Source of the DNA: an uncultured Alphaproteobacteria bacterium
GTDB taxonomy: Bacteria > Pseudomonadota > Alphaproteobacteria > HIMB59
Assembly: GCA_902599045.1 (NCBI GenBank)
Contig: CACKEA010000002.1
Coordinates: 226,501-290,500 of the forward strand
Direction of reading: 5' to 3'
Length of the DNA stretch: 64,000 bases
Shown: positions 31,076-49,133 of the stretch, one piece after another
Layout of the letters: each line of letters starts with the position of its first letter
How positions within the stretch are numbered: the stretch's first letter is position 1
Program-made: the position numbers and the translations under genes
The notes under the pieces: model-generated
The model's input: the letters and a program-made list of their open reading frames with translations, nothing else
Database searches by the model: none
Told to the model about the DNA's origin: nothing

Positions 31076-32433
31076 TTCACAGCAGGTATTGAGCCCATAG
31101 ACTCTTCAAAAGCCTTTGAGTCAAATTTATCTTCAGCAAGATTACCAGAAAAATAGTCCATGTAAGCCTGCATATCAAAGTGTCCATGACCACAAAGGTT
31201 AAACAAAATAGATTTTGATTTACCTTCAGCTTTACATTTAAGTGCCTCATCAACAGCACCTTTAATAGCATGTGTAGCCTCAGGAGCTGGCATAATACCC
31301 TCAGTTCTGGCAAACTGAATACCAACCTCTAAACATTCCTTTTGTCCGTAAGCTCGAGGTTCCATATGTCCATTGTGAACTAGGTGAGATAACATTGGAG
31401 CCATTCCATGATATCTTAAACCACCAACATGAGTAGGTGATGGCATAAAATCAGAACCCAATGTGTGCATCTTTAACAAAGGAGCAGATTTTAGAGTATC
31501 ACCAAAGTCATAAGAGTATTTACCTTTTGTCAATGAAGGACAAGAGGAGGGTTCAACGGCAATTGCATGAACATCTTGTTCACCTCTAAATTTTTTGCCT
31601 AAGAAAGGATTACACAAGCCTGAAAAATTACTTCCACCACCAGTGCACCCTATAACTATATCTGGATAGTCGTCAGCCATTTCCATTTGAAGAAGCGCTT
31701 CCTGTCCAATAATAGATTGGTGCATTAATACATGATTTAAAACACTTCCTAGTGCATATTTAGTATCTTCATTTGTAGTGGCCACTTCTGCTGCTTCAGA
31801 TATGGCAATACCAAGAGAGCCGGCACTATTTGGATCTCTTTCTAAGATAGCCCTTCCAGAATTTGTTTCGTTTGAAGGACTCGCAACTACACTACCACCA
31901 TAACTCTCAATTATTGCTCTTCTATATGGTTTTTGATCATAGCTTACTCTTACCATAAAAACTTTAATTTCAATTCCAAATACAGCCCCGGCATAACTTA
32001 GAGCGGTACCCCATTGACCTGCACCTGTTTCAGTTGCTATTTTCTTTACACCAGCCTCTTTGTTATAAAATGCTTGTGCTAATGCAGTATTAGGTTTGTG
32101 ACTACCTGAAGGACTGGCACCTTCATATTTGTAATAAATCCTAGCAGGCGTATCTAAAGCTTTCTCTAAAGCTCTAGCTCTTACTAAAGGAGTACATCTC
32201 CAACGACTATAGGCCTCTAAAACAGGACCAGGGATATCAATATATCTCTCTTGTGAAACCTCTTGCATAATTAAATCCATAGGAAATAGAGGTGCTAAAT
32301 CATCAGGACCTAATGGTTGTTTTGTTCCAGGATTTAAGGGTGGGCTCATTGGCTCTTTTAAATCCGCTACCAGATTATACCATTGTTTTGGCACATCACT
32401 GTCTTTTATATAAAATTTACTATCCTCACTCAT
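31072..32433 (-). CDS. TrpB2-type tryptophan synthase beta-like PLP enzyme
   Basis: GASPSGSHKPNTALAQAF; ETGAGQWGTAL; GCTGGGSNFSGL; GIMPAPEATHAI. Confidence 0.9.
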   Translation of the reverse strand: MSEDSKFYIKDSDVPKQWYNLVADLKEPMSPPLNPGTKQPLGPDDLAPLFPMDLIMQEVSQERYIDIPGPVLEAYSRWRCTPLVRARALEKALDTPARIYYKYEGASPSGSHKPNTALAQAFYNKEAGVKKIATETGAGQWGTALSYAGAVFGIEIKVFMVRVSYDQKPYRRAIIESYGGSVVASPSNETNSGRAILERDPNSAGSLGIAISEAAEVATTNEDTKYALGSVLNHVLMHQSIIGQEALLQMEMADDYPDIVIGCTGGGSNFSGLCNPFLGKKFRGEQDVHAIAVEPSSCPSLTKGKYSYDFGDTLKSAPLLKMHTLGSDFMPSPTHVGGLRYHGMAPMLSHLVHNGHMEPRAYGQKECLEVGIQFARTEGIMPAPEATHAIKGAVDEALKCKAEGKSKSILFNLCGHGHFDMQAYMDYFSGNLAEDKFDSKAFEESMGSIPAVN

Positions 32434-32477
32434 AATGAATAACTTTATTGTATTTGTTAGATAAAAAGTAGGATTAT

Positions 32478-33389
32478 TTAATCGCTATAATATCTATTTA
32501 AAGCAGCTTCTTTGTTAATTAATGGTAAAAGTTGAGCAACTAAAACACCAATTAATATTAGAAAACAGCCAAAAACCTGAACATTTGTCAAATACTGAGA
32601 AAGTATAATCCATGCTGCTAAAGATCCAAATACACCCTCGAGAGAAAATGTAATTGCTGCTGTGGATGGTTTTACATACCTTTGCCCAAAAACTTGAAGG
32701 GTATAAGCAATTCCACTTGACATGACCCCTACATATAAAAGCTCAAAGATTTCTTTTGATATTCCCTCAATTGTAGGATTTTCAAATATAAACATGAAAG
32801 GCAAACTATAAAAAAAACATAATAGAAATTGGGAAGATGCCAAAGTAAATGGTGCATTTATAATTTCAAAGTATTCATCAATTAAAATGCAATGTATTGC
32901 AAAAAATAAAGCACATACAATTACAAGTATATCGGCAAATTGTGCTTCAAAACTATTCTCAAGAGTTAAGTAATAAGACCCTACTAGACATATTGATACG
33001 GATAGCCAAACACTCCAGTGTATTTTCTTTTTTAAAAACAATCTCGATATTATAGGAACAAATGGAACATATAATATTGTTAAGAAAGCTGCATTTCCTA
33101 CTTTAGTATACTGTAAAGCGTATTGTTGAAGGTAAGTTCCTAATAATAAACTTAAACCAGTTAAAAGAACTACAATTATAAATTTTTCTTTATTTTTAAG
33201 ATTTTTAATTTTATTAATTTCATAAAAAGCAAAAGGTAAAACTATTATCCCACCAATTAAAAAACGCATATTTGTAAACGTTAGTGGACCAATAAATTCC
33301 ATTCCTGTAGTTTGAGCCACAAATGCAGTACCCCAAATTATTGATGCTACTATGAGACATAAAGTAGATAAGAGAAGCTTGGAGTTCAT
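32478..33389 (-). CDS. EamA/DMT-family transporter
   Basis: About 10 TM; IWGTAFVAQTTGM; ITFSLEGVFGSLAAWIIL. Confidence 0.85.
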   Translation of the reverse strand: MNSKLLLSTLCLIVASIIWGTAFVAQTTGMEFIGPLTFTNMRFLIGGIIVLPFAFYEINKIKNLKNKEKFIIVVLLTGLSLLLGTYLQQYALQYTKVGNAAFLTILYVPFVPIISRLFLKKKIHWSVWLSVSICLVGSYYLTLENSFEAQFADILVIVCALFFAIHCILIDEYFEIINAPFTLASSQFLLCFFYSLPFMFIFENPTIEGISKEIFELLYVGVMSSGIAYTLQVFGQRYVKPSTAAITFSLEGVFGSLAAWIILSQYLTNVQVFGCFLILIGVLVAQLLPLINKEAALNRYYSD

Positions 33390-44511: not shown

Positions 44512-45270
44512 ATGCTATCAAAGTTTTGGATTGATTTAACTTCAGATGACATAAAAAAATTAGGTAAAAATAAAGTACTTATTATGCCTTTTTCATCTGT
44601 TGAGCAACATGGCGACCATCTACCTTCAGGTACTGATAAATTGATTTTAGACGGTATTTTAAATACTTTTATTAAAAACAATCCAAAATTAAATAACTTT
44701 TTAGTTTTACCAAATATCTCAATAGGATCAGCTAGTGAGCATAATAGCTTTGAAGGCACTATCTCAACAAGTTCTACAAATTATATTGATTACATTATTA
44801 GTGTAGTAGAGGATTTATGTATTCGTAAATATAAAAAGTTTGTCTTCTTAAATAGTCATGGAGGACAAATTAGTCATTTAGATATAGCTGCAAAAGAAAT
44901 TAAAAGCACATTCAAAAATGTCGATATAGTGAAGGCTCATTATTTTTTATTTAAAGGTTTTGAAAAAATTATTCCTAAAAAAGAACTGCTTTATGGTTAT
45001 CATGGAGGTGAATTTGAAACCTCAGTTATGCTTCATCTTCATCCAGAATTGATAAAAATTAATAAAATTAAAAAAAGTAAACTCTCATCTGATATTAATT
45101 CAAAAAAAATTATTTCTTATGAAAAAACAATAAAAAGAGCTTGGAACACAAAAGATTTGTCGGAAACAGGCATAATAGGTAATCCTACAAACTCCTCTGC
45201 AGACAAAGGAAAGAAAATCCTAGATCTTGCATCAAGAACCTTAAAAAAAATAATTAATGAAATGAAATAG
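44512..45270 (+). CDS. Creatininase-family amidohydrolase
   Basis: MPFSSVEQHGDHLPSGTD; FLNSHGGQISHL; YHGGEFETSVML. Confidence 0.9.
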   Translation: MLSKFWIDLTSDDIKKLGKNKVLIMPFSSVEQHGDHLPSGTDKLILDGILNTFIKNNPKLNNFLVLPNISIGSASEHNSFEGTISTSSTNYIDYIISVVEDLCIRKYKKFVFLNSHGGQISHLDIAAKEIKSTFKNVDIVKAHYFLFKGFEKIIPKKELLYGYHGGEFETSVMLHLHPELIKINKIKKSKLSSDINSKKIISYEKTIKRAWNTKDLSETGIIGNPTNSSADKGKKILDLASRTLKKIINEMK

Positions 45271-45321
45271 CTCAGATTTATTTCTGGATAAAGTTAAATG
45301 ATGCGAAGATATGCCTATGTT

Positions 45322-45343
45322 CACAAAATACTTTTTATTTGTG
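45322..45343. other. Weak imperfect inverted repeat (CACAAAata...TTTGTG)
   Basis: CACAAAATACTTTTTATTTGTG in the 104-bp gap between the creatininase and polymerase-like ORFs; AU-only interior, no trailing T-run. Confidence 0.25.
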
Positions 45344-45374
45344 TTAAGTAACCAACTACATTTATAATTATAAC

Positions 45375-46865
45375 ATGAAAATAGCAAATAGAGGTAATTG
45401 GATATCTATTCCAAAAAATTTAGATAAATTTTGGCGAGAGATAGATATTAGACTAATAAATGAGCAACACTACCTTGATCAAGTTTATACAAAAGAAATT
45501 AAGCACAATAATACATTATTTTTTTCAGAGTCAGATGTATTCCATATTAATTATACGTTAAGTGGCTCACATGTTGATTTATGCATTGATAATTTAATTA
45601 AACTTCTTTATTTAAATCAAAAACTTTCTAAATCTTTAAAAGAAAATATTAGTGACGCCTTAAAGGGAATATTGGCAAATGCACTTTTATCTTATCATAA
45701 ATTTGGTGGCTCTGGTTTTGTCAGAATAAAAAGTGGTAATGATGAATATAATAAAAATAGATATAACCCTTTGATGACCAAAAAAAGCACTTTAGATGTC
45801 CTAGACAAATTAACTAAGGTTGGACTGATTGAATATTACTCTGATAAGTTTTTGGAAAGGAGATACAAGAATAAGATAAAAAAACATTTCTTAAGATACA
45901 GATTTAAATGGGAAATATTTACAAAATTTATTGAGTATGAAATAGGATACAAAGATTTATATCGAGTAAGTGATTTTGTTATGCTCAAAGGCCCTAAAAT
46001 TAAATCATCAATAATAGAAACTTCTAAAAATTATAAAGATACAGATGAAACCAAAAAGATGAGAAAAGATTTAGAGAAATATAATGACTTATTACGCAGA
46101 AATCATATGAATATTAGCGGAAATTTGATTGATCAAGAAGGTAAGGACTTTCAGTTTCAGAATTATGGTAAAAGATTTTATTATCGTGTCTTTACTAAAA
46201 ATAATTTTAGTTGTGGTGGTAGATTTTATGGTCATTGGGTATTAGAAATACCAGCCTTAGCTAGACAGTTTCTTAACATTAATGGAAGACCAACTAGGCA
46301 AATAGATTATTCAGCATGTTTACTGCATATAATGTATTCGACGCTTAACATTGTTCAACATACTGGCAAAGATTTATATGCAATGGTTGATGAAGATAGG
46401 TCATGGGTAAAGGCCTTTTGTATTATAGCACCTAACACAATTAAATTAAGAGATGCATGTGAGCAGACAGTTCAAGAATTAGGACTCAAATGGAATAAAA
46501 AGAATGAAAAAAGAGTATACAAACTTGCCAATTTGATTTCTAAGGCTCATAGTGAAATTTATAATGCTTATTTTTTTAAGGGTAATGTTAATGGACAAAA
46601 ATTTATAAATCATGAATCAAATATAGCTAATGAAATAATCATGCACTTTGTGAATAAAGAAATATTAATTCTATCTGTAAATGATGGTTTTATTATTGAG
46701 AATAGATACAAAATAGAATTAGTGCAAATTATGGAAGATAAGTGGGTTAAACATTGGAAAGCTAGAGGATTAAATTCATCTAAACCATTGATAAGAGAAA
46801 CTAAACATTTAACTGCTTACAATAGTCCAATTGAAGATATCTTCGATAAGTATGTTCCTTTGTAA
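45375..46865 (+). CDS. Uncharacterised 496-aa protein with motifs resembling a family A / T7-RNAP-like polymerase palm
   Basis: GGRFYGHWVLEIPALARQFLNINGRPTRQIDYSACLLHIMYS (motif A-like D311), DRSWVKAFCIIAPN (R342xxxK346, motif B-like), ILSVNDGFIIE (motif C-like D437). Confidence 0.5.
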   Translation: MKIANRGNWISIPKNLDKFWREIDIRLINEQHYLDQVYTKEIKHNNTLFFSESDVFHINYTLSGSHVDLCIDNLIKLLYLNQKLSKSLKENISDALKGILANALLSYHKFGGSGFVRIKSGNDEYNKNRYNPLMTKKSTLDVLDKLTKVGLIEYYSDKFLERRYKNKIKKHFLRYRFKWEIFTKFIEYEIGYKDLYRVSDFVMLKGPKIKSSIIETSKNYKDTDETKKMRKDLEKYNDLLRRNHMNISGNLIDQEGKDFQFQNYGKRFYYRVFTKNNFSCGGRFYGHWVLEIPALARQFLNINGRPTRQIDYSACLLHIMYSTLNIVQHTGKDLYAMVDEDRSWVKAFCIIAPNTIKLRDACEQTVQELGLKWNKKNEKRVYKLANLISKAHSEIYNAYFFKGNVNGQKFINHESNIANEIIMHFVNKEILILSVNDGFIIENRYKIELVQIMEDKWVKHWKARGLNSSKPLIRETKHLTAYNSPIEDIFDKYVPL

Positions 46866-46873
46866 AGATTTGT

Positions 46874-46947
46874 TGGAGGCCCACCCCGGAATCGAACCGA
46901 GCTACAAGGATTTGCAGTCCTCTGCATAACCAATCTGCCAGCGGGCC
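46874..46947 (-). tRNA. tRNA-Cys(GCA), CCA encoded
   Basis: Reverse complement GGCCCGCTGGCAGATTGGTTATGCAGAGGACTGCAAATCCTTGTAGCTCGGTTCGATTCCGGGGTGGGCCTCCA. Confidence 0.96.
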
Positions 46948-46968
46948 ATAAAATTTAACATAACACTT

Positions 46969-47746: not shown

Positions 47747-49133
47747 ATGAAAAAAAATTCCTACATATTAGAGGCACAAAACTTTCTTAAAAATAACCCA
47801 GATATAAAATCATTTGATATTGTTATGCATGATTGTAATGGTATTGGTAGAGGAAAAATAATACGTCGGAACGAATTAATTAAAATTTATAAATCTGGAA
47901 GACAATTTCCTCTCTCTTTAATGGGCATGGATATAACAGGGGAGGACGTCCCAGAAACAGGATTAATATTTAATCAAGGAGATGGCGACATCAAAGCCTG
48001 GCCTATCCCCTCATCACTTAAACCAATACATAAATCCAAACCCGCAAGGGGAGAATTATTTATGAACATGCATGATATTAAAGGGAATAAACTATCTACA
48101 GATCCTCGCAATCAATTAGAAAAAAAAATTGGAGAGTTTAAAAAAAAAGGAATTTCTTTTCGTGCAGCTTTTGAACTTGAATTTTTTTTAGTTTCAAATG
48201 AATTAGATGAATATGGAAAATTGAAGCCAGCAAAATCAGTATTAGGAAAAAAATCATCTAGACGTAAAACAGATGTTTATTCAGTTGATATCCTTCATGG
48301 CATGTTACCTTTGTTTGATGATATTTATGAGGCTACAGTATTAGCAAATATTGAAGCTGAAACAATCATATCAGAATACGCTCCTGGTCAATATGAGCTA
48401 ACACTAAAACATCAAAATTCTATCCTTAAAGCTGCTGATGATATTTTGAGATTAAAAAAGAATAATAAGAGCTCAGGCCAGATTACATGGTGTTACTGCC
48501 TGCTTTATGGCCAAACCTATGGAGGATGTTTCAGGTTCTGGCATGCACTTTCATATTTCTCTTTATAATAAAAAAAATAAAAACCTTTTTGCTGAAAAAA
48601 ATAAAAAAAAAATAAGTAAATATTTGTCCTATGCTTTAGGTGGATTATCAAAAACTATGGGAGAGAGTATGTTAATCTTTGCACCTAATGCAAATAGTTG
48701 GAGGAGGTTTAAAAAAGGCTCATATGCTCCCATTAGTCCAAACTGGGGAATTGATAATAGGTCTGTAGCTTTTCGAATACCAAGCAGTGATGTTCAAAAC
48801 ACAAGAATCGAACATAGAGTTTCAGGTGTAGATGCAAATCCTTATTTAGTAGCGCTAACAGTTGTTTCAGCTATTGAGAAAGGATTTAAAAATAAAATTG
48901 ATGCAGAAAGGCAAACAACTGGTAATTCTTATTTAAAAAAAACTTCTAGCAAAAATAAAATACCAACAGATTGGAACTCTTCGATTAATTTATCAAAAAA
49001 ATCTTTATTTCTAAAAGAAACCTTAGGACCAGAATTGCATAAAGCCTTTATAGCCATAAAAGAAATGGAGTACAATAAAGTAGCTAGTACTGTTTCAGAA
49101 CTAGATATAGATTTATATTTGGACTCTATTTAA
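47747..49133 (+). pseudogene. Glutamine synthetase-like (GlnA/PuuA family), split by a 1-nt frameshift in an A6 run
   Basis: ORF 47747-48568 gives the N-terminal part (AAFELEFFLV...GQYELTLKHQNSILKAADDILRLK); frame of ORF 48507-49133 gives ...RAQARLHGVTACFMAKPMEDVSGSGMHFHISL...; deleting one A at 48454-48459 joins them. Confidence 0.85.

Follow-up and report, generated by a model that had tools for sequence, protein, structure and literature searches.

We propose that a 496-amino-acid ORF beside a tRNA-Cys gene encodes the polymerase of a kind of integrative element that is analogous to the pipolins, and that the copy in the window (the 64,000-nucleotide stretch of alphaproteobacterial DNA that we analyzed) is a stripped, non-autonomous insert. 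We put the probability of this reading at roughly 60%. We call the protein POL. In an intact element, the integrase would excise the element and insert it, and POL would bind the excised DNA via its N-terminal domain and then start or perform the copying of the element. POL would presumably be catalytically active, make DNA, and initiate synthesis by itself. In the window, the integrase and the end repeats would have been lost from the insert, and POL would have been kept intact by selection. A bolder version is that POL is a third, self-starting branch of the PolA/single-subunit RNA polymerase group; that together with the integrase it defines widespread, self-replicating elements of marine alphaproteobacteria; and that the POL in the window was kept as a stand-alone gene. 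We hold this version tentatively and lean somewhat against it.

The POL family is present in hundreds of genomes and in about 240 phage records, yet it is missing from Pfam and its members are annotated as hypothetical. In a literature search that omitted most subscription papers, we found no description of the POL family or of PolA-type integrative elements.

The ORF and its conserved motifs

The features of the locus, in window positions, are:

44512..45270, + strand: left flanking host gene, which we take to be creatininase-like; its stop codon is directly followed by the insert here and by the tRNA in sister genomes
45271..46873, no strand: insert of 1,603 bp, missing in sister genomes, with no duplicated tRNA end and no integrase (from the sister-locus comparison)
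45375..46865, + strand: POL ORF (predicted polymerase fold, 496 amino acids, ATG start), the sole ORF of the insert
45507..45974, + strand: POL N-terminal domain, residues 45-200, modeled as winged-helix-like (its structural matches are all weak)
46218..46235, + strand: GRFYG motif, G282-H287, with R283 invariant (family alignment and spacing)
46305..46316, + strand: motif A, D311-Y-S-A, with D311 invariant (family alignment)
46371..46379, + strand: D333-x-Y335 (compare DIY569-571 of T7 RNA polymerase and DIH of Pol I)
46398..46436, + strand: motif B, R342-x3-K346-x7-N354, with N where Pol I and T7 RNA polymerase have Y (alignment and spacing)
46671..46691, + strand: motif C, L433-S-V-N-D437-G-F, with D437 invariant and N436 where the family usually has H (family alignment)
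46874..46947, - strand: tRNA-Cys (GCA), the insertion target, with its 3' end towards the insert (tRNA call and sister loci)

The initial annotation, which was made from the sequence alone, described a 496-amino-acid ORF at a distance of 8 bp from the tRNA-Cys 3' end. This is what we see, with the 8 bp counted from the stop codon (45375-46865 versus 46874-46947). The peptides that it quoted are also present: GGRFYGHW at residues 281-288, QIDYSACLLHIMYS (which includes D311), DRSWVKAFCIIAPN (R342 and K346), and ILSVNDGFIIE (D437).

We aligned 63 relatives, which are about 20% identical to the window protein. Eleven residues are invariant across the 63 sequences (G282, R283, Y285, G286, R297, D311, Y335, K346, G407, L433, and D437), and R342 and N354 are each kept in 62 of them. 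The four residues that had been singled out beforehand (D311, R342, K346, and D437) are invariant or nearly so, and thus appear to be catalytic-type positions. R283, R297, Y335, and G407 are invariant residues that had been overlooked. By its order and spacing, the GRFYG motif is the counterpart of TGR in Pol I and of GRVY in T7 RNA polymerase.

At several positions where the family is nearly invariant, the lineage in the window has another residue (E309Q, H316L, H436N, and S438G). Where the family reads DYSGLH, N, and HDS, the window protein reads DYSACL, N354, and NDG. The histidine-to-asparagine change in motif C, which had been noticed from the single sequence, is real and is specific to this lineage: 62 of the 63 relatives have H at this position. 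The GRxY, DxY, and HDS(F/Y) signatures all occur in the family, with GRFY, DLY, and NDGF as their counterparts in the window, and most members have a Q near the position of the QNIP motif.

Predicted fold and kinship with known polymerases

We ruled out a housekeeping or otherwise annotated family, as POL has zero matches in Pfam, NCBIfam, or PADLOC. The only library match is to phrog_4756 from PHROGs v4, whose function is unannotated (E = 1.3e-19; residues 91-459 align to 57-426 of 440). The match of this model to the copy in Vibrio phage 11895-B1 has E = 1.6e-136. phrog_4756 is the same family as POL, but it covers the phage copies only and leaves the integrative elements outside. The Pfam model of family A DNA polymerases (PF00476) does not match the window protein at E = 10, nor eight of its relatives at E = 1; the same model does detect the host's own Pol I. 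Pfam searches with the window protein and the eight relatives also gave no match to PF00940 (single-subunit RNA polymerases) or to PolB profiles. By sequence, we found no relatives of known structure, whether we used the single sequence or a profile of the 63 sequences. Patterns derived only from the sequence of the window protein gave no close viral relatives; the family alignment was required to find them.

We modeled the structure with AlphaFold2, using the 63-sequence alignment as input. The model (pLDDT 83, pTM 0.81) has a palm/fingers/thumb fold. In a Foldseek search of the PDB with this model, the highest-ranked hits are family A DNA polymerases (E = 1.3e-5). With VIA-align, the top match is yeast mitochondrial RNA polymerase (Z = 15.2, 3.5 Å over 251 residues), and Pol I-type enzymes (apicoplast, Bst, and Taq) score about 13-14, with about residues 198-480 of the model being matched. 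The initial annotation had read POL as a single-subunit palm nucleotidyltransferase, and had named the lack of a palm fold or a lack of conservation of D311, K346, and D437 as grounds to refute this. We checked for both and saw neither: the predicted structure does contain a palm and resembles DNA polymerases of the PolA type as well as single-subunit RNA polymerases, and the three residues are invariant. The motif A aspartate, the motif B R...K, and the motif C aspartate also occur in the expected order. The modeled N-terminal domain (pLDDT 84) has a best Z of 5.9, and most of its matches are to winged helices of the MarR, PadR, or HxlR types, which is below the level that we trust; with Z under 6, we do not claim that it is a winged helix.

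The model and the motifs support the placement of POL in the superfamily of family A DNA polymerases and single-subunit RNA polymerases. This placement rests on structure and motif order because profile-profile comparison is weak for Pol I and absent for T7 RNA polymerase: using hhalign, we detected nothing between the POL family and T7 RNA polymerase, and the match to an alignment of Pol I from this order is not significant (E = 0.008, probability 5%), with motif A in register. The family as modeled is unnamed, about 430-530 amino acids long, and consists of a compact palm/fingers/thumb and an N-terminal domain that is possibly a winged helix. We did not recognize an exonuclease domain in the family.

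POL shares with the family A DNA polymerases (PF00476) the palm/fingers/thumb, the order of motifs from a TGR-like motif onward, DYS in motif A, R...K in motif B, and x-D in motif C. It differs from them in having no Pfam match and no recognized exonuclease domain, in having N at the tyrosine position of motif B (K+8), in lacking DYSxxE in motif A, in having HDS or NDG for HDE, and in a far shorter interval from motif B to motif C. Among the single-subunit RNA polymerases (T7 and mitochondrial, PF00940) it has its top structural Z, and the family's GR-x-Y, D-x-Y, and HDS(F/Y) resemble theirs, but POL has no Pfam or hhalign match to them, its motif A is DYS and not DGSC, and it is about half as long. 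The successive spacings from the GR motif to motif A, DxY, motif B, and motif C have medians of 28/21/21/90 in the family, compared to 37/27/24/124 in the host's Pol I and 112/32/62/181 in T7 RNA polymerase. The signature of the family reads as mixed, with DYS and the R-to-A spacing as in Pol I and with GRxY, DxY, and HDS(F/Y) as in T7 RNA polymerase.

Instead of copying DNA, POL could be a single-subunit RNA polymerase whose role is to transcribe the element or to make RNA primers. We consider this unlikely, but it is the alternative that we take most seriously. In structure, POL is most similar to a mitochondrial RNA polymerase, if only by 15.2 versus 13.8, which is close to a tie; and the GR-F-Y, D-x-Y, and HDS(F/Y) motifs (the latter as in the family's motif C) resemble T7 RNA polymerase more than Pol I. 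However, motif A is DYS as in Pol I instead of DGSCxGxQH, the spacing from the GR motif to motif A is similar to that of Pol I (28 versus 37, and 112 in T7 RNA polymerase), most members have the Q near the QNIP position, and Foldseek puts Pol I first. Also, one element encodes a single-stranded DNA-binding protein similar to gp2.5 of phage T7 (see below), which points towards DNA replication. If POL is active, then it would be a compact polymerase that lies between Pol I and the T7-type RNA polymerases, and it would be informative about how these two lines diverged.

Relatives in integrative elements and phages

Within the same genus as the window's genome, some genomes have copies of POL that are 94-97% identical to the window protein. 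More distant relatives, at 30% identity, are found in G001 (same genus) and G037 (same order). Scanning with the family alignment, we found matches in 20 of 289 genomes of the class, and in 24 of the 398 genomes in a sample of the phylum (23 of these 24 are from the window's own class). A scan of GTDB genomes gave 252 relatives, and those with a name are nearly all alphaproteobacteria (SAR116, Rhodobacteraceae, and Rhodospirillaceae among them); we retrieved the loci for 79 of the 252. Phage and plasmid records contain further relatives.

To describe the neighborhoods of these genes, we used 34 loci flanked by 9 kb or more on each side, and as controls we used 17 stretches (which is few) from genomes in the same survey. 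A tyrosine integrase lies within 8 kb at 31 of the 34 loci and at 0 of the 17 controls (Fisher p = 8e-11; the integrase model was derived from the loci themselves). A tRNA gene with its 3' end towards POL is present at 27 of the 34 loci and at 1 of the 17 controls (Fisher p = 5e-7). Direct repeats of the 3' part of the tRNA (17 to 66 bp, the shortest being less certain) delimit many of the elements, which are then about 3-12 kb long. When we clustered the ORFs of 17 delimited elements, exactly two families were common to all of them, the integrase and POL; the set is conditioned on POL, as the loci were gathered by the motif GR[FL][YW]G..WWQ and the presence of POL. The integrases belong to PF00589, often with DUF6538. 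The cargo is varied and includes type II, IIG, and III restriction-modification systems, guanylate cyclases, peptidases, and an OLD/AriA-like ATPase; among the 25 listed of the 38 cargo families, none is a primase, a replicative helicase, a Rep protein, or a capsid protein. Our best reading is that the POL family and a tyrosine integrase are the hallmark of elements that insert at the 3' ends of tRNA genes, mostly in alphaproteobacteria.

Two of the elements illustrate this arrangement. The element in G001 is about 4.8 kb, lies at tRNA-Thr between 66-bp repeats, and encodes the POL relative, an integrase, two orphan proteins, and the gp2.5-like single-stranded DNA-binding protein (L168, 11811-12437; Pfam 3.6e-15, PHROG 4.5e-17), which we found as a neighbor in this element only. 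The element in G037 is 10.4 kb, lies at tRNA-Gly between 51-bp repeats, and contains a type III restriction-modification pair and an integrase. We also observed a decaying element in G208, where the POL relative (L172, 9297-10715) is broken by a stop codon and lies between two copies of tRNA-Gly.

The pipolins of E. coli have nothing in common except the polymerase and the att sites (PMC7385651). Like POL elements, pipolins are integrated in a tRNA gene between att repeats and carry variable cargo, and what stays constant is the recombinases and a polymerase that the element itself encodes. The pipolin polymerase (piPolB) is of family B, whereas POL elements encode a protein that is PolA/ssRNAP-like by its predicted fold. 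Because the polymerases are from different families, the likeness is one of organization and not of descent. Among PolA-type polymerases, POL elements would be what pipolins are for family B. The tRNA-derived att repeats and the recombinase are found in the family's elements but not around the copy in the window. POL elements also resemble the tycheposons and other tRNA-associated genomic islands of marine bacteria (PMC10872708) in having a tRNA border, a tyrosine recombinase, marine hosts, and variable cargo; they differ in that the main text of PMC10872708 does not mention a polymerase, and the insert in the window has no recombinase. POL elements would offer an explanation of how a large group of tRNA-bound islands of marine alphaproteobacteria, which often carry defense genes, could be replicated.

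The POL gene is also present in about 240 records of lytic phages, mostly large phages of Vibrio, Aeromonas, and Rheinheimera. These copies are nearly always labeled "hypothetical protein" and a few are annotated as "DNA polymerase." Five of the six phages that we examined also encode a separate PolA-type polymerase (one of the five is just below the Pfam cutoff), so in phages POL is probably accessory and not the main replicase. In Vibrio phage HNL01, the gene adjoining POL encodes a DNA helicase. Vibrio phage 11895-B1 (HQ634157.1) has two diverged copies of POL, at 31888-32934 and 76986-77969 (L009 and L210), and several other vibriophages have two or three copies.

The cargo and the phage copies could also suggest that POL is a gene for defense or for some other benefit to the host, for instance by untemplated synthesis against phages, in which case the lone copy at tRNA-Cys would have been retained for this benefit, and the phage copies would be a counter-measure or a weapon against competitors. 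Consistent with this, the elements of relatives carry type II, IIG, and III restriction-modification systems and the OLD/AriA-like ATPase, the gene is common in phages, and the copy in the window is under purifying selection (see below) though its insert holds nothing else. We think that this is quite improbable. The PADLOC models do not match POL, and restriction-modification cargo is common in all kinds of genomic islands. Also, the cargo varies from element to element while POL does not, which argues that POL belongs to the core of the element and is not cargo.

The insert at tRNA-Cys

In about a dozen sister loci, the insert is precisely absent: the stop codon of the left flanking gene runs directly into the 3' end of tRNA-Cys, as TAG|TGGAGGCCCACC with no gap. 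Since this joins window position 45270 directly to 46874, the insert is exactly 45271-46873. The filled loci are in G000, G031, G021, G003, and G012, and the filled copies in other species have identical ends and nearly equal lengths. The initial annotation had suggested a stranded mobile element, and both the exact empty site and the presence of relatives in integrase-bearing, tRNA-integrated elements support this suggestion. It had also stated that there was no integrase beside POL, which is correct for the copy in the window but does not hold for the family, whose members lie together with a tyrosine integrase between repeats of the tRNA 3' end.

Like the islands that tyrosine integrases insert at tRNA genes, the insert abuts the 3' end of the tRNA precisely and has an empty site in relatives; unlike them, it has no integrase and no duplicated tRNA 3' end. 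We found no repeat of the tRNA end at its left boundary. AGATTT occurs near both ends (45271-45290 and 46863-46873) in the filled copies and could be a remnant of an end repeat, or it could be chance. Because end repeats are limited to this chance-like hexamer, we do not claim an att site. With its integrase and repeats lost, the copy in the window is not expected to be mobile on its own.

These losses raise the question of whether POL is simply the dead remnant of a mobile element that is drifting towards loss. The substitutions at several near-invariant sites and the interrupted relative in G208 fit with such decay. Nevertheless, we consider this very unlikely, as the ORF is open in all five copies, dN/dS among them is 0.12-0.19 (with dS of up to 0.26), which is comparable to that of the flanking host gene (0.07-0.16), and all of the invariant residues are retained. 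POL in the window is under purifying selection. The window copy and the precise empty sites in sister species provide a natural comparison for any benefit of a lone polymerase to its host. Although the assemblies are fragmented (16 contigs), we dismiss the idea that misassembly or misbinning joined POL to the tRNA locus, as at least four other genomes contain this insert with identical ends, and about twelve have the empty site.

The locus recombines. In flank trees, G023, whose site is empty, has a left flank that is sister to that of the window's genome (97.6% identity) and a right flank that is unrelated, and in G021 and G031 the right flank of tRNA-Cys is of another type. Because the content or sequence type of the right flank (window position 46948 onwards) varies among sister genomes, tRNA-Cys marks a recombination boundary. 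Given these trees, the distribution of the insert may reflect exchange at the tRNA or precise loss of the insert.

Other inserts occur at the same tRNA-Cys. The insert in G017 is another one, about 1.9 kb long (L176, 1986-3977), with a 50-bp repeat of the 3' part of the tRNA; it has no integrase and no polymerase, and its ORFs have no Pfam matches. G018 has a polymerase-free insert of about 2.6 kb (L177, 14631-17263), in which we detected no repeat and which has one ORF family in common with the G017 insert. Since these inserts lack an integrase and one of them has intact 50-bp repeats, small passengers do use this tRNA-Cys.

Beyond the tRNA, a glutamine-synthetase-like gene (PF00120, window positions 47747-49133) is split into two ORFs by an extra A in an A-run near 48454. 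This is either a real frameshift or an assembly error; in sister genomes, the gene is a single ORF of 461 amino acids.
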